Source: Enteractinococcus fodinae (GTDB taxonomy: Bacteria > Actinomycetota > Actinomycetes > Actinomycetales > Micrococcaceae). From it: DNA of 64,000 nt. The DNA is taken from positions 496,001 through 560,000 of the forward strand of contig NZ_JAVDYJ010000001.1 in assembly GCF_031458395.1 (NCBI RefSeq), written 5' to 3'. The translations under genes and the position numbers were made by a program. Each line of letters opens with the position of its first letter. The first letter of the stretch is position 1. Positions 31,051-37,657 of this stretch are shown in pieces. Under the pieces are notes generated by a model. It ran no database searches, had not been told where the DNA came from, and saw only the letters and a program-made list of their open reading frames with translations.

Positions 31051-31086
31051 CGTACTTTTACTACTGCTTAAAACCGAGGAGTGATC

Positions 31087-31323
31087 ATGGCAGCACACTG
31101 CCAGGTAACCGGAGCTGGACCGGGGACAGGTTATAAGGTCTCCCACTCGAACCGCCGTACCAAGCGCCGGTTCAATCCGAACATCCAAAAGAAGAGCTAC
31201 TTCGTCCCTTCACTGGGCCGCAAAGTAACTTTGAACGTATCCGCCCGCGGCATTAAAGTCATCGACGCCCGCGGCATTGACTCTGTCATTTCAGAACTCA
31301 TCGCTAAGGGAGTGAAGCTCTAA
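31087..31323 (+). CDS. rpmB: Ribosomal protein L28 (zinc-independent type)
   Basis: The 78-residue protein has the L28 pattern [28 protein letters not shown] and [21 protein letters not shown]. Zinc-binding L28 has paired CxxC motifs; only one Cys is present here, so it is the C-minus form. ATG 31087 has GAGGAG 5-6 nt upstream. It shares an A with the next ATG (TAATG), so rpmG translation is coupled. Part of the 50S subunit. Confidence 0.95.
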
Positions 31324-31490
31324 TGGCAAAAGATAAGGGCTTGCGCCCCATCATCAAGCTGAAATCAACCGCTGGCACCGGTTTCACTTACGTTACTCGT
31401 AAGAACCGCCGGAACAACCCAGACCGTATTACGTTGAAGAAATACGATCCGGTAGCCCGCAAACACGTTGATTTTCGAGAGGAGCGCTAA
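31323..31490 (+). CDS. rpmG: Ribosomal protein L33 (zinc-independent type)
   Basis: The 55-residue protein reads [49 protein letters not shown], a full-length L33. It has no cysteine, so it lacks the zinc ribbon. Its ATG overlaps the rpmB stop by one base, and rpsN follows after 3 nt. Confidence 0.95.
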
Positions 31491-31493
31491 GCA

Positions 31494-31799
31494 TTGGCTA
31501 AGAAATCTATGATTGCTAAAAACGAGAAACGAAAAGAAATCGTTGCTCGTTACGAAGAACGTCGTAAAAAGCTGAAAGCTCAGCTGGTTGATCCTAACGC
31601 GACTGATGAAGAGCGCGAAGAAGCGCGTGTCGGCTTGCAGAAGCTGCCACGTGACGCCTCTCCAGTCCGTGTTCGCAACCGCGACTCCATTGATGGCCGT
31701 CCACGCGGTACCCTGCAGAAGTTCGGTATCTCCCGTGTACGCCTTCGTGATATGGCGCACCGTGGCGAACTTCCAGGTGTGACGAAGTCATCCTGGTAA
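31494..31799 (+). CDS. rpsN: Ribosomal protein S14 (long, zinc-independent type)
   Basis: The 101-residue protein is the long form of S14, with [21 protein letters not shown] replacing the C.RCGR zinc knuckle of the short form and the ending [24 protein letters not shown]. It has no Cys. TTG start with GAGGAG about 8 nt upstream. Last gene of the rpmB-rpmG-rpsN operon and followed by a strong terminator. Confidence 0.95.
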
Positions 31800-31816
31800 C
31801 GTCATAATCTTTCTCA

Positions 31817-31855
31817 AAAACTGGCCAACGGTTTTCCGTTGGCCAGTTTTGTTTT
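31817..31855 (+). terminator. Rho-independent terminator after rpsN
   Basis: A 15-bp perfect stem (AAAACTGGCCAACGG with CCGTTGGCCAGTTTT), TTTT loop, then TTTTGTTTT. It lies 17 nt past the rpsN stop. The symmetric A- and T-runs could also terminate on the minus strand. Confidence 0.93.
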
Positions 31856-31971
31856 AACAGACCGTGCGCCACGACGGGTGTATCTCGCATTCGGCCCGTA
31901 GATATCCGAACCTGCTGACTCCATGCGATATCCTTGCTGTAATAACTGAGAAATGCGGAGGCGGCATAACT

Positions 31972-33651
31972 ATGTCATCGTTGAGTTTTGTGGCCATTTC
32001 CATGCAAACAACCCATCTGGATCCAGCCACGGTCTCTCAAGCCGCGTACCTCAAAATGGTGGATGGACAGATCACCCGCCTGGATAACATTTTCATCATC
32101 CCTCCGACTTCAGAAGCCGGAACGGACGGGCCTTCAGACGCTGTGCCTTGGTCTGAGGCGCTCTCCCAGCTGGGTATGGTGATCGGCAAACTGCCCATCG
32201 TCAGCTATTACCGCGATGCAGATAAAGAAATCTTCCAGGCGGCAAGCCGTCGCAGCGGTACCGAGTTGCCGCACTTTCAATGGCTGGATTGTCGGGCTCT
32301 GGCTCGAGAACTGCTCCCTGACTTACCGGATCACCAGCCCTCAACCGTGCTCAAAGCCTTGGACATCTATGATGAGCACGCTGATAGCGGCACCGTAGAA
32401 CAGACCGCTCAGATCGTCCTGAAACTTGCGGAACATCACGCAGCGACCACCCTCACTGAACTGTGGGGTGACCTCTATGATCAACCAGATGACCTACTCG
32501 ATCTCGAAGCGAACCTAACGGGACCACCCTCTCCTGAAACAAAACTGCCAGCTGAGGACGCCGAGGACCAACACGGCTCAGTTGATGCAAGGTTGCTAAT
32601 GACTGTCAGTACAGAAGATCAGCCACTGCCTCCACCACCTCAGAACCCAGAGGATGCAGGAATGCAATCCCTGGACGAGCTGGCTGCAGAAACAGGGCCA
32701 GCCGCAGAGCATCCAACCGGCATGGAGGCTACAAGTGTAGCTATCTCGGAGTCTTCAGGATTACCGACACAGGACTCAAGCGTGCCAGCAGATTCCCGGT
32801 CGGATTCCAACAACGGGATAGCTCCAGAGCTGGACGCGGTAGAGGAAGGGACCGAAGATCTCGGCGATTCGACAGCGCAATCTGTTATCGAAAGCGAAAA
32901 TCTCGAGCAGCCCGAATTCCTCAAAGTCACGGACCCAATAGAGCCACACGACAACGAAATATCCGAGCCGCACAATAACCCAACGGCATTCGAAACAACT
33001 GCGCCGGAGGCTTCTGAAGCTAATGAAGCTAATGAACAGCTTCATGACCCTGGCCCCGTCGAGCTGGAGGGGACGGACGAACGCGACCAACCATCTGAAC
33101 CCCAGGCACCAGACTCAAAAGCGGACCAACTACCACTTGCAGTCGAAGACGAACCAGCCACGATAGGGGAGACCTCGTCACCAGCCGGCGGCGCTGACTC
33201 AGAGCCCGACGCAGGACAAGACGAGCCAGCAGAAACTGACAGCGAAGACTCGGCCGAGATATCGCCACCCCAGCCAGCTGCCACGACGAAACCGTTCGAC
33301 CCGGTTTACCAAGTCGTAACACCCGCTCCGGTACCACGACCCGGCGGCGCACGGTCCTCCTCGTCAACCAGAACAGATCGTGCGGAGGTTAACTCCCAAC
33401 CGAGCCCGGCTCATGAATCGCGAAAGTCAGCAGCGCGGACCGGTCGCATGTGGGGGATACTAGGCATCATTGTGTTCGGCTTGCTGACCATCGTGGGTGC
33501 GATTTTGACAGTCATGGCGACCATGTTGTTTTTCACTGCCAATAGTCTCCTTTTGGAGACAAAAATCGCAGGCGTCATTCTCACCGGTGCCATCACCTTA
33601 CTCAGCCTGTTGATGACCACGTTGAGTTACCGCACATACCGCAGAAAATAG
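31972..33651 (+). CDS. Membrane protein with an inactivated DnaQ-like exonuclease domain
   Basis: The 559-residue protein starts with a DEDD-exonuclease-like domain (about residues 3-160). FVAISMQTTH aligns with FVAVDVETTN, LPIVSYYRDADKEIFQAA with the Exo II region, and LPDHQPSTVLKALDIYDEHADSGTVEQTAQIVLKLA with the H-bearing Exo III helix. The DxE pair is replaced by S and Q, and the Exo III Asp is a Thr, so nuclease activity is unlikely. A very acidic disordered region of over 300 residues, a Pro-rich segment, a basic patch and two C-terminal helices (about 494-520 and 530-552) follow. ATG 31972 has GGAGG 10 nt upstream. No whole-length family recognised. Confidence 0.75.
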   Translation: MSSLSFVAISMQTTHLDPATVSQAAYLKMVDGQITRLDNIFIIPPTSEAGTDGPSDAVPWSEALSQLGMVIGKLPIVSYYRDADKEIFQAASRRSGTELPHFQWLDCRALARELLPDLPDHQPSTVLKALDIYDEHADSGTVEQTAQIVLKLAEHHAATTLTELWGDLYDQPDDLLDLEANLTGPPSPETKLPAEDAEDQHGSVDARLLMTVSTEDQPLPPPPQNPEDAGMQSLDELAAETGPAAEHPTGMEATSVAISESSGLPTQDSSVPADSRSDSNNGIAPELDAVEEGTEDLGDSTAQSVIESENLEQPEFLKVTDPIEPHDNEISEPHNNPTAFETTAPEASEANEANEQLHDPGPVELEGTDERDQPSEPQAPDSKADQLPLAVEDEPATIGETSSPAGGADSEPDAGQDEPAETDSEDSAEISPPQPAATTKPFDPVYQVVTPAPVPRPGGARSSSSTRTDRAEVNSQPSPAHESRKSAARTGRMWGILGIIVFGLLTIVGAILTVMATMLFFTANSLLLETKIAGVILTGAITLLSLLMTTLSYRTYRRK

Positions 33652-33885: not shown

Positions 33886-34176
33886 ATGGCTATGAACCGC
33901 AGTGAACTTGTAGCAGCCGTTGCCGAAAAATCCGGTAACTCTGCCACCGCCGTCAATGGTGTGCTGGACGCTGTATTCGAGGTTTTCGCCTCGCAGGTTT
34001 CCAAAGGTGAAAAAATCACCATCCCAGGCTGGTTCTCAGTAGAACGCACGAACCGTGCAGCACGCACCGGTCGTAACCCACGCACCGGCGAAGCAATCGA
34101 AATCCCAGCCGGTCACGGTGTCAAACTGTCTGCAGGTTCGAAACTGAAGGCTGCCGCCACCGGCGAGAAAAAATAA
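33886..34176 (+). CDS. hup: HU-family DNA-binding protein
   Basis: The 96-residue protein is a standard HU: MNRSELVAAVAEKSGNSATAVNGVLDAVFEVF, then EKITIPGWFSVERTNRAARTGRNPRTGEAIEIPAG, where the arm carries the GRNP..GE motif. It bends and compacts DNA as a dimer. AGGAGG lies 5 nt before the ATG. It has no Lys/Ala-rich C-terminal extension of the mycobacterial/streptomycete HupB type. The 234 nt upstream are A/T-rich with tandem TTCCGCGAAA repeats. Confidence 0.95.
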   Translation: MAMNRSELVAAVAEKSGNSATAVNGVLDAVFEVFASQVSKGEKITIPGWFSVERTNRAARTGRNPRTGEAIEIPAGHGVKLSAGSKLKAAATGEKK

Positions 34177-34992: not shown

Positions 34993-35064
34993 ATGTGGCC
35001 AACCTGTGGGATCGGCCCTCCCACATTCGTCGGATTGACCCAAGGCATCCTTGGGAAGGAAGAT

Positions 35065-35718
35065 ATGCAACACACTGTTTCTACCCGTTTTGGCCTCTGG
35101 CTTGCCGTGCTGTTCACTGCTGTTGGACTTATGACGGCACCTTCGACAGCACACGCACACGATGTGCTAGTTGAGTCCACCCCCGAGATGGGATCCACGG
35201 TCGAAACCACCCCGGAAGAGGTGCGGTTACGCTTCTCTGGGACCCCCCTCACCGGTGAGGGATTGACGAATTTAATCCGTGTCACGGACGACCAAGGCAA
35301 CGAATGGCAAGACGGTGAGGTCGTCGTAGAAGGCTATGAGCTTGCCGTCCCGCTGTGTGAGACGTTGCCGCAAGGTGAATATACCGTCGCCTACCGAGTT
35401 ATCTACTCGGACGGGCACACCGGTGAAGAACGGTTCAACTTCACGAATGCGGATCCAGAGGCACCAGCCAATGGCACTCCGGAAAGTTGCGGTGCGGTGG
35501 TAGAGGAACCAGCCCCCACCGCGGGAGCCACTGACTCCGACACTACTCAGGACACATCGAGCGCCGAAAATACCGCCGATGAAAATTCTTCAGCGTCGAT
35601 TCCCGGATGGGTCTGGGTCGTCGGCGGTGTCGGCATCTTCGTTATAGCAGCGATTGTGTATCTGCTCATGCGTGGTAGCCGCACTGGCCCGGCAGCCGAA
35701 GACTCATCGGGCGACTAG
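35065..35718 (+). CDS. copC: CopC-domain copper-binding protein, membrane anchored
   Basis: The 217-residue protein has a signal peptide ending at HAHA-like cleavage so that His (HDVLVESTP) becomes the mature N terminus, a Cu(II) ligand in CopC/YobA proteins. The beta-sandwich continues with TPEEVRLRFSG and ends IYSDGHTGEERFNF, which holds the second His. A Ser/Thr/Glu linker and a C-terminal helix (WVWVVGGVGIFVIAAIVYLLM) tether it. GGAAGGA lies 4 nt before the ATG. An inverted repeat (CCCAAGG-cat-CCTTGGG, 35039-35055) touches the ribosome site. Confidence 0.87.
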   Translation: MQHTVSTRFGLWLAVLFTAVGLMTAPSTAHAHDVLVESTPEMGSTVETTPEEVRLRFSGTPLTGEGLTNLIRVTDDQGNEWQDGEVVVEGYELAVPLCETLPQGEYTVAYRVIYSDGHTGEERFNFTNADPEAPANGTPESCGAVVEEPAPTAGATDSDTTQDTSSAENTADENSSASIPGWVWVVGGVGIFVIAAIVYLLMRGSRTGPAAEDSSGD

Positions 35719-35737
35719 ATAATCGTGTAGGAAACTG

Positions 35738-36295
35738 ATGAAAAAATTTTCCCCTGTCCTGTCCACCACCGCTATCGCCGGGTTACTCTTGGCCGGTTGC
35801 GCTTCGGATGACCAAGCCGAAGCGGTTGACGATCATGCTGTTGAAGGTGAGATCTTTGCGGTCGAAGATCCCTGGGTGCGTGCCACCGAAGTGATCATGG
35901 AGACCGACCATGATCACTCCATGACCGGTGCGTTTGTGCACCTCACCAACGTTTCTGGTGAAGACCAGACCATCGTTGGAGCTCACGCAGAGGTTGCCGA
36001 GTTGGTTGAGCTCCACGAAGTCATCGACGACGGGGGCGTCAATGTCATGCAAGAAAAAGAAGGGGGCTTTCCGCTTGCCGGCGAGCAGCGATACGAGCTC
36101 AACCCTGGTGAAGATCACATCATGTTGATGGATCTGGCCGAGGAAATTCAACCGGGTGATGTCATCGACATCACCCTTGAGGTGGCTACCGGCGAGACCC
36201 AAACAATCGAGTTTGTGGCCAAGGATTTCGTGGGCGCCCAGGAAAATTACGGCGACCTCGACCACCACGATGATGAAACTCACAGTGAGACATAA
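35738..36295 (+). CDS. PCuAC-type copper chaperone lipoprotein
   Basis: The 185-residue protein has a lipobox (LLAGC, Cys21) and a PCuA(C) domain: DPWVRAT, GAFVHLTN, ELHEV..GGVNVMQ and GEDHIMLMDL, giving the H...M...HxM copper-ligand pattern of the DUF461 family. These proteins deliver Cu(I) to the CuA centre of cytochrome oxidase. It has a His/Asp-rich tail (DLDHHDDETH). It fits the neighbouring CtaG and CopC genes; the next gene starts 15 nt later. Confidence 0.88.
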   Translation: MKKFSPVLSTTAIAGLLLAGCASDDQAEAVDDHAVEGEIFAVEDPWVRATEVIMETDHDHSMTGAFVHLTNVSGEDQTIVGAHAEVAELVELHEVIDDGGVNVMQEKEGGFPLAGEQRYELNPGEDHIMLMDLAEEIQPGDVIDITLEVATGETQTIEFVAKDFVGAQENYGDLDHHDDETHSET

Positions 36296-36310
36296 GAAAG
36301 ACGATACCCA

Positions 36311-37657
36311 GTGACCAACACGTCCAACTCTGCACACGAGCAACCGATTAAGGGTGTTTCGCGGCGTGGATTGTTGTTGGGTGCCGGGGGATTGGTCGGT
36401 GGGGGTCTGATAGGTGCTGCGACCGGATATTCTGCAGCATCGGTTGGTGCCCCCGCCGCACCCGGTGATCTCCAACAACCCGTCACGGTCAGTCCCGGGG
36501 TGGCAAATACTCAGGTGACGGTCTCTGAACCCTACGGTACAGATTCCATCCCGTTTTACGGGCCGCGCCAGGCCGGGGTTGATACTCCACTGCAGGCCCA
36601 CGGTATTTTCATCGGTCTGAACTTGCATGACGATACCGACTCTGACCGGCTAGCGTCGATGATGCGATTGCTCACCGATGACGCCGCCCGGCTGACGCAA
36701 GGCCGGGGGGCGCTGGCTGATCTCGACGAAGAACTCGCAGCGGCGCCTGCTCGGCTCACCGTGACCTTTGGGTTCGGTTCAGCAGTCTTCGACCGGACCA
36801 AACCAGAACTGAAACCCCCGTGGCTCAAGCCATTACCCGAATACTCGATTGACCAGCTCGATCCGGCGTGGTCCGGAGGCGACATGGTCATCCAAATCCA
36901 AGGCGATGATCCGCTCTCGGTGGCACACGCCCGTCGTATGCTACTCAAAGATTCGCGGGCCTTCGCTTCGGTGGCGTGGGTGCAAACCGGTTTCACCCAC
37001 GCTAGAGCTTCACACCCGGATGACACGACGATGCGCAACCTGTTTGGCCAAGTTGATGGCACCGGCAACCCGGTGAGCGGTTCGGATCAGGCCGAGCGGG
37101 TGGTCTGGGGTGTGGGCAACGGCGACGGTAACGGCACCAAGACCCTACAACCCTGGATTGAAAACGGCACCTCCATGGTAATCCGCCGGATTGCGATGAA
37201 CGTAGATGAATGGGATGAACTGGACCGCCCCATGCAAGAAGGCGTCATTGGTCGCAAACTGGGGTCTGGAGCGCCCCTGACCGGTGAACAGGAACACGAC
37301 GCCCCGGATTTCGAGGCATTAGGGCCCGCAGGGTTCCCGGTAATCTCCGACATTGCGCATATCCGCCGAGCGCGCACAACCGACTCAGACGAGGCGATGT
37401 TTCGGCGCAGTTTCAACTATGATGAACAACCGACCTCTTCGGGAAGTGCGCTGCACGGTCAGACGGGTGTATCGGAATCCGGCCTGATTTTCGTGGCCTT
37501 CCAGTGCGACGTCGGGCTACAGTACACCCCTATTCAGGATCGCTTAGCTGAAACTGATCACCTGAATTTGTGGACCATCCCGATTGGGTCAGCAGTTTTT
37601 GCCATTCCGCCCGGCTGTGCGGCAGATGGCTATATCGGCGAACCGCTGTTCGTCTAG
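36311..37657 (+). CDS. Tat-exported dye-decolourising peroxidase (EfeB-like)
   Basis: The 448-residue protein has a twin-arginine signal (SRRGLLLGAGGLVGGG). The DyP domains contain FGQVDGTGNP (the GxxDG motif with catalytic Asp), HIRRA with the proximal haem His, and a late GLIFVAFQ strand. DyP/EfeB enzymes are haem peroxidases exported folded. Here it sits inside a copper block, without EfeU/EfeO iron-uptake partners. GTG start. Probably same transcript as the PCuAC gene. Confidence 0.9.
   Translation: MTNTSNSAHEQPIKGVSRRGLLLGAGGLVGGGLIGAATGYSAASVGAPAAPGDLQQPVTVSPGVANTQVTVSEPYGTDSIPFYGPRQAGVDTPLQAHGIFIGLNLHDDTDSDRLASMMRLLTDDAARLTQGRGALADLDEELAAAPARLTVTFGFGSAVFDRTKPELKPPWLKPLPEYSIDQLDPAWSGGDMVIQIQGDDPLSVAHARRMLLKDSRAFASVAWVQTGFTHARASHPDDTTMRNLFGQVDGTGNPVSGSDQAERVVWGVGNGDGNGTKTLQPWIENGTSMVIRRIAMNVDEWDELDRPMQEGVIGRKLGSGAPLTGEQEHDAPDFEALGPAGFPVISDIAHIRRARTTDSDEAMFRRSFNYDEQPTSSGSALHGQTGVSESGLIFVAFQCDVGLQYTPIQDRLAETDHLNLWTIPIGSAVFAIPPGCAADGYIGEPLFV

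Follow-up and report, generated by a model that had tools for sequence, protein, structure and literature searches.

A membrane-tethered pseudo-exonuclease of Enteractinococcus and Yaniella with an FtsZ-tail-like arm peptide: a possible division-site adaptor

Introduction

What maintains a nuclease-fold protein from which catalytic residues have been lost? This question is raised by a gene of Enteractinococcus fodinae located at 31972..33651 on the plus strand of the window, which is the whole 64,000-nucleotide stretch of DNA analysed here (C1:496001-560000 within the 2.93 Mb genome). The initial annotation described its product as a pseudo-exonuclease held at the membrane by a long acidic arm, and suggested a scaffold or sensor that binds a DNA end, a clamp or a nucleotide. 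The protein was compared with its counterparts in a sample of nine Enteractinococcus/Yaniella genomes (its own, G000, and G001-G008; referred to below as the genus), as well as with exonucleases of other Micrococcaceae and of more distant bacteria.

Actinobacteria are described as being devoid of many known FtsZ regulators, with SepF having been, for a time, the sole known binder of their FtsZ tail (excerpts of PMC7118173 and PMC10522489). The exonuclease domain family itself is known, while the tethered dead form that carries an FtsZ-like peptide appears to be new within the open-licence literature. That peptide, unmentioned in the initial annotation, lies inside the best-conserved block of the arm and suggests a connection with cell division.

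Gene structure and genomic locus

The gene encodes 559 amino acids in an open frame that runs from an ATG at 31972 to a stop codon ending at 33651 and is preceded by a ribosome-binding site, recognized by eye (GGAGG, 31957..31961, plus strand). Orthologues were found in all nine genus genomes searched, with a domain identity to the window protein of 57-72%, and comparison of the nine N-terminal domains with named genomes led to eight loci, three in Enteractinococcus, four in Yaniella and one in a genome labelled Micrococcaceae bacterium. Because M1 is invariant among the nine aligned relatives, a longer ORF starting with GTG at 31864, the start of which is not conserved, is not likely to be the gene and was rejected; the frame, coordinates and start originally assigned were right.

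The upstream neighbours, which we take to be rpmB-rpmG-rpsN (ribosomal proteins L28, L33 and S14; 31081..31799, plus strand), and the downstream neighbour, presumably a gene encoding an HU-family DNA-binding protein (hup; 33886..34176, plus strand), recur in the genus and lie outside the proposed function. An inverted repeat followed by a run of T was seen by eye after rpsN, at about 31816-31855, with no counterpart in a computed listing. The order rpsN, pseudo-exonuclease gene, hup is present on one contig in seven of the nine genus genomes, while G002 shows the downstream side only and G008 the upstream side only. Among 28 genomes of other genera, the distance between rpsN and the HU gene was within 0.71 kb in 15 and 1.8-5.8 kb in nine; in the remaining four, the two genes were far apart, were on different contigs or the HU match was missing. 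Seven of the nine longer intervals and one short one, inspected by eye, contained ORFs of transporter, transposase and other types and no exonuclease. The notion of an old, fixed locus was rejected on these grounds, and the gene seems to have arrived at this position with the Enteractinococcus/Yaniella genus.

The rpsN-HU interval takes up different genes in different genera. In G024 (L157:3768-5330), for example, it is filled by an antiporter-like membrane ORF, and the flanking rpsN and HU genes are 87% and 95% identical to those of the window. Beyond the HU gene, the window (34993-37657) contains genes with Pfam matches to a CopC domain, a PCuAC-type copper chaperone and a Dyp-type peroxidase, perhaps a copper/iron handling cluster. 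In another genome (G027:C7 3521-23980), three HU genes are spaced about 10.1 kb apart, with a fourth on contig C3. The spacing suggests that a unit of 10 kb is repeated there, and the assembly perhaps contains a concatemer of a plasmid or phage.

An N-terminal domain of the DEDDh exonuclease fold

Sequence comparison assigns residues 1-173 (31972..32490, plus strand) to a catalytically degenerate domain of the DEDDh exonuclease fold. Residues 1-166 align with an exonuclease paralogue encoded in the same genome at E = 1.7e-18 and 34% identity. An hhalign comparison of the nine genus domains with sixteen exonuclease domains (the paralogue and fifteen from other genera, two of which have Glu for the Exo II Asp) gave a probability of 99.8% over 169 columns, a figure that comes from a comparison with exonuclease domains alone. 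On these two alignments, the domain is homologous to DEDDh exonucleases, as the initial annotation had claimed. General libraries give fainter signals. In Pfam, the window protein matched no family at E <= 0.1, and the NCBIfam DEDD exonuclease model matched it weakly (9e-4) and matched three of the nine genus members (best 2e-5). A genus profile searched against the PDB gave a weak result, in which the PolC exonuclease 2p1j reached an insignificant E = 0.22 and was outranked by an unrelated chain (0.12). The sixteen related domains matched the structures of PolC, DinG, epsilon, Cas2-DEDDh and RNase T.

Besides this gene, the genome encodes at least two more copies of the exonuclease domain (C1:375605-376519 and C1:1125604-1126143). 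In the paralogue at C1:375605-376519, the DEDDh residues are intact and a BRCT match falls short of the Pfam cut-off. This copy, an intact exonuclease-BRCT protein near genes that are presumably of ectoine type, clusters with the G009 exonuclease, from genus g2, at a support of 92; with a composed query, the top scores in the remaining genus genomes are far lower, and this paralogue was perhaps acquired.

The N-terminal domain is acidic, with a pI of 4.7 and a net charge of -7 to -17. Its acidity weakens the case for DNA binding, although 122 related exonuclease domains are mostly acidic as well (median net charge -8).

Conserved loss of the active site

In the window protein, the Asp and Glu of Exo I are replaced by Ser and Gln and the Asp of Exo III by Thr, while the Exo II Asp and the Exo III His are present, in agreement with the original residue calls. 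Across the nine orthologues, the Exo I Asp position is occupied by Ser in four and Glu in five, the Exo I Glu is Gln in all, and the Exo III Asp is never kept (Thr in three, Ser in four and Ala in two). The Exo II Asp (D84) is retained in 9/9, within an invariant DADKE stretch. Retention of the Exo III His holds for the window protein but not genus-wide, as the residue is His in two orthologues and Tyr in seven. A further loss had been missed: a 10-12-residue segment with an HGI motif, which does not vary among the sixteen related domains, is deleted in all nine. The expectation that the lost residues would be conserved as lost was borne out, with the Exo I Glu and the Exo III Asp gone from every orthologue. 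Close homologues with intact DEDD residues in the same frame, named earlier as evidence that would count against a pseudo-exonuclease, were found nowhere within the genus, but distant tethered relatives with intact residues exist. Taken together, the residues argue strongly that the protein has no exonuclease action.

The invariant residues of the domain are concentrated in the segments that correspond to Exo I and Exo II, the limits of which were the author's choice (24/32 versus 45/141 elsewhere, p = 1.3e-5). For four species pairs at dS 0.8-1.6, three of which come from the Yaniella-type trio L035, L036 and L038, dN/dS was 0.05-0.10 in the domain, 0.03-0.09 in the C-terminal helices and 0.35-0.49 in the arm. 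Values for the domain were 0.08 at dS 2.4 between the window protein and L031 and 0.18 at dS 1.6 between the window protein and L033, whereas the arm and helices of these two pairs, as well as every region of L034/L035, were saturated. Purifying selection on the N-terminal domain and the helices is a well-supported reading of these ratios. A low dN/dS combined with lost catalytic residues implies that the protein is maintained, though not for its ancestral chemistry.

The acidic arm and the membrane helices

The domain is followed by an acidic, Pro-rich arm (residues 178-489; 32503..33438, plus strand), which is probably disordered, judging from its composition. With about 312 residues, of which 22% are D+E, 4% K+R and 13% P, it is slightly longer than the 300 residues given initially. 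Hydropathy predicts two membrane helices, with ends placed by eye, at about residues 493-521 (33448..33534, plus strand) and about residues 532-551 (33565..33624, plus strand), the second followed by the basic tail SYRTYRRK. As first proposed, the C-terminus thus carries two membrane helices, and these are conserved in 8/8 complete orthologues; the ninth ends at a contig end. Hydropathy, the basic flanks and the start of the protein directly at a folded domain suggest that the helices form a hairpin, which would leave both the domain and the arm in the cytoplasm.

The arm stands in the place of a BRCT domain, for which no match at E <= 0.1 was found with Pfam in the nine genus proteins, one of which is truncated. 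Beta-clamp-binding motifs are typically of the QLxLF type. The loose pattern Q-x-x-[LMI]-[FLY] is missing from seven of the nine arms, that of the window included, and a stricter form is present in 0/9 genus proteins; clamp binding, one of the roles originally considered, was therefore rejected.

The pseudo-exonuclease held at the membrane that was first envisaged is upheld by the residues lost alike in 9/9, the purifying selection and the helices of all complete orthologues. That the protein is dead as an exonuclease, membrane-tethered and selected is well supported by sequence, and these three properties together point to a scaffold or adaptor rather than an enzyme, in line with the scaffold-type role suggested initially.

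An FtsZ-tail-like peptide in the arm

A PxFL motif in the arm was first spotted by eye, and a motif-free conservation scan followed, with 16-residue windows and three species pairs whose arms are 37-44% identical. In all three pairs, the best-conserved arm block holds [DE]x[PS]xF. Between the window protein and L031, seven tied 16/16 windows form one identical 22-residue block, GDSTAQSVIESENLEQPEFLKV (residues 298-319; 32863..32928, plus strand), and four of the seven include the F of the motif. The best windows were SDEMPVFLQEPTQDER and SDELPLFLQEPTRDER for L033/L037 (13/16), and DIPTFEVGEVAEHSTT and DISTFEVTEVAEH for L035/L036 (11/16). Within the block of the window protein lies the decamer ENLEQPEFLK (residues 309-318; 32896..32925, plus strand), which resembles the FtsZ C-terminus, DDLDVPDFLK in 9/9 genus genomes. 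The likeness to FtsZ was recognized after the motif, and the scan covers three pairs.

The decamer scores 31 against the FtsZ tail, a value equalled by 3/5000 shuffled window arms and, in a second run, reached by 3/2000; for the L031 arm, 2/5000 shuffles equalled the score. The six other complete arms scored no better against the FtsZ decamer than their own shuffles. As control peptides, C-terminal decamers of other window ORFs reached p <= 0.002 in 0/42 cases and random decamers in 3/840, and 1/840 random decamers scored as high as 31. The pattern [DE]xPxF is present in seven of the eight complete arms, including that of the window, and the remaining arm has Ser for Pro; [DE]xPxF[LM] is present in five of the eight. 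Neither count was reached by any of 3000 shuffle sets, and because the arms are related, the counts are not independent trials. The longer pattern was found in 0/42 other window ORFs (16,715 residues; ORFs picked by the author). The three Yaniella-type arms carry DIPTFEV, DISTFEV and EMPTFEV, all without Leu, and L036 is without Pro. The peptide is internal in the arm, whereas in FtsZ it is C-terminal. Conservation and controls argue with moderate confidence that the arm peptide imitates the FtsZ tail, less so in the Yaniella-type arms.

In tethered exonucleases outside the genus, [DE]xPxF was found in two of the seven examined (VELPDF in L166 and EAPVF in L185). L166 (G017) comes from another genus and is both tethered and partly degenerate; its VELPDF, in the linker near residue 266 of the frame, likewise resembles the FtsZ tail.

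Tethered relatives and origin

The tethered architecture is not unique to the genus. The earlier proposal to search for it elsewhere was productive, revealing nine tethered exonuclease loci in other Micrococcaceae (L182, L183, L184, L185, L200, L044, L043, L013, which is the same as L042, and L025, which is the same as L057). Each consists of an exonuclease domain, a long linker and, close to the C-terminus, one or two predicted helices. DEDDh residues are intact in five (L044 and L182-L185), and one or more are lost in L042/L043, L057 and L200. For BRCT, L183 and L184 score below Pfam's cut-off, and L182 and L185 show it by alignment only. L182-L185 and L200 were found by reading protein tails; among 132 distinct domain sequences with tails read, at least 17 are tethered (eight in the genus and nine outside), counts that are lower bounds because tails are readable just as far as the loci reach. 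Among the matches listed from 295 genomes of the family, only the four proteins from which the model was built matched it over its full length. In 30 loci read from 396 genomes, ten of these loci from outside the family, no tail helix was seen, and among the matches listed from the 396, none extends past position 438 of the 505-position model.

The tether is patchy, being present in three of 11 genomes of genus g15. In this genus, the intact L044 and the degenerate L042/L043 have common neighbours, presumably glycosyltransferase-like, which indicates that a similar decay occurred there too. In a quick tree, the Enteractinococcus/Yaniella proteins form one group (SH-aLRT 100) with a stem of 1.33 changes per site and end branches of 0.05-0.26, nested among tethered and soluble exonucleases; the tether label requires eight changes, at least three of which are forced by supported branches. 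Given the intact tethered relatives in other genera, the genus protein can be seen as the end point of a repurposing of proteins of this kind. With the deep branches of the tree being weak, its origin from a tethered enzyme that was still active is no more than probable. The dead tethered enzyme and the existence of its tethered relatives form what is, from sequence, the solid part of the account.

An anti-phage defence gene was considered and rejected, as PADLOC returned no match for the window protein at E <= 0.01 and the ribosomal/HU locus argues against it as well; four intact-site tethered relatives match the DEDDh and PDC-S48 models of PADLOC via their exonuclease part. A phage origin, for which the sole support was a weak PHROG exonuclease match (E = 0.048), was likewise rejected.

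A proposed division adaptor and its alternatives

SepF is encoded in all three genus genomes tested. It aligns over 60 residues, at 40% identity, with structure chain 3p04, which we take to be C. glutamicum SepF, and 6sat/6scp match the same range. The pseudo-exonuclease gene is far from ftsZ/sepF (C1:1683355-1685849). C. glutamicum SepF is described as binding the FtsZ tail DDLDVPSFLQ, in which D436, P438 and F440 are labelled as conserved contacts, and as requiring its residues K125 and F131 for this binding (excerpts of PMC7118173). The positions retained in the arm peptide, D/E, P and F, are the same as these labelled contacts; in the genus SepF, with numbering inferred by spacing, the presumed F131 is kept and the presumed K125 is Arg.

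These observations can be combined in the following scenario. A membrane-tethered, DnaQ-type exonuclease would have lost its catalytic carboxylates and the HGI segment in the ancestor of Enteractinococcus and Yaniella, and its gene would have settled between rpsN and hup, encoding a protein without BRCT. Anchored by its hairpin of two C-terminal helices, the protein may serve as an adaptor on the inner face of the cytoplasmic membrane, where the arm peptide would mimic the FtsZ tail and dock on tail readers, SepF first of all. Docking might place the protein at the division site, or the protein might compete with FtsZ. As invariant residues concentrate on the old active-site segments, it is proposed that the dead domain uses the face of its lost active site to hold a further ligand, which may be nucleic acid, a nucleotide or a protein, a suggestion drawn from conservation alone; the protein would then connect the divisome with this ligand. 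The preferred reading is an adaptor at the membrane that does not cut and that docks on SepF or on some other reader of the FtsZ tail, to which we assign a probability of roughly one in three, with a weaker case for the Yaniella-type arms. SepF as the reader of the peptide and a role in cell division are both suggested by the likeness of the peptide to the tail. More speculative, and rather unlikely in its full form, is a tethered exonuclease turned division-site adaptor. Its FtsZ-tail mimic would sit on SepF either in competition with FtsZ or alongside it, and the protein might connect nucleic acid at the closing septum to the Z-ring, as a nucleoid-occlusion-like or chromosome-clearance factor. 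If true, an FtsZ-tail-mimicking membrane protein would represent a new mode of Z-ring regulation, and a dead nuclease domain on such a mimic would provide a direct handle on the coupling between septum closure and DNA.

The same domain could instead tether nucleic acid to the membrane with no link to division, in which case the dead domain would still hold 3' ends of DNA or RNA, and the motif in the arm would bind an unrelated partner or be used in some other way. This explanation, almost as probable as the preferred reading, draws on the exonuclease-fold homology, on the strongest conservation of the domain lying in its former Exo I and Exo II segments, and on the PDB matches of related domains to nucleic-acid enzymes (PolC, DinG, epsilon and RNase T); it is weakened by the acidity of the domain and the loss of the metal-holding carboxylates and the HGI segment, and it leaves to chance the resemblance of the best-conserved arm block to FtsZ. 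Several DEDDh enzymes are known to form dimers, and with at least two more exonuclease-domain copies in the genome, one of them with intact DEDDh residues (C1:375605-376519), the dead copy might form mixed dimers with that paralogue and recruit it to the membrane. Such a regulatory partnership is improbable, given that the paralogue is only 34% identical, that the branch leading to the pseudo-domain is long (stem 1.33) and that the exonuclease copies are not neighbours in the genome.

Still less probable is an enzyme with altered chemistry, in which the Exo II Asp, kept in 9/9 within the invariant DADKE stretch, would bind a metal or another cofactor together with new residues; the Gln at the Exo I Glu position and the Thr, Ser or Ala at the Exo III Asp position in every orthologue speak against it, as do the Tyr for the Exo III His in seven of the nine and the missing HGI segment. 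A decaying pseudogene or sequencing artefact would account for the lost active site and nothing more. The frames are open in all nine genomes (one ending at a contig end), the locus is the same in the seven with both flanks on the contig, and across four species pairs the domain and the helices show dN/dS values of 0.03-0.10, on which this explanation was rejected; its probability is considered negligible.

Relation to known systems

A precedent for the proposed adaptor is GlpR of Corynebacterium glutamicum, which is described as integral to the membrane and as having, like the window protein, a disordered, acidic part in the cytoplasm (excerpts of PMC10522489). GlpR differs in its three helices and in an additional disordered region, which is basic, and it contains no nuclease domain. 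Its partner Glp, a repurposed enzyme, is reported to bind GlpR and the FtsZ tail at overlapping sites (excerpts of PMC10522489 and PMC11733289). Unlike GlpR, the window protein has two predicted helices and one acidic arm. A GlpR/Glp system itself seems unlikely within the scope of a MoeA_N search of four genomes, which revealed no Glp: the two copies of G000 were found in molybdenum-cofactor clusters that we take to be moaE-moeA-moeB and moaC-moeA, the one copy compared scored 172.8 bits with E. coli MoeA versus 105.2 bits with Glp, and the near genus G024 had no match. A looser parallel is offered by Noc, a ParB-like site-specific DNA binder to which no homology of the window protein is claimed. 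If the pseudo-exonuclease domain binds DNA, DNA would likewise be held at the membrane near the division machinery, as described for Noc of Bacillus subtilis (excerpts of PMC4331003).

Among exonucleases, the window protein shares fold homology with the DnaQ/epsilon-like DEDDh exonuclease-BRCT type of Actinobacteria (Pfam RNase_T, PF00929), intact-residue relatives of which are present in the same genome and family; unlike these, it is without the catalytic carboxylate set, the HGI segment and a BRCT match, and it has a membrane hairpin and a long arm. The tethered Micrococcaceae exonucleases L182-L185 and L044 share the exonuclease domain, the long linker and two C-terminal helices, and they differ in their intact DEDDh residues, in the BRCT-like region of L182-L185 and in that four of the five are without [DE]xPxF. 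Open-licence PMC papers yielded no description of tethered exonucleases of this L182-L185/L044 type, of a DnaQ/BRCT/transmembrane exonuclease of Micrococcaceae or of a dead or membrane-anchored DEDDh exonuclease, and among those inspected for the genus and cell division, none was about such a protein; within this literature, the initial statement that no system of this form has been described agrees with what was found. Soluble exonuclease-BRCT proteins, intact tethered forms and dead tethered forms would constitute a natural series of enzyme repurposing, the intermediates of which persist in other genera of the family.

Dead exonucleases recur in Micrococcaceae, as L059 and L060 (G363 and G356, genus g10) are soluble, degenerate DnaQ-like proteins without a tether, the former with an Exo I Glu-to-Ala and an Exo II Asp-to-Asn replacement.
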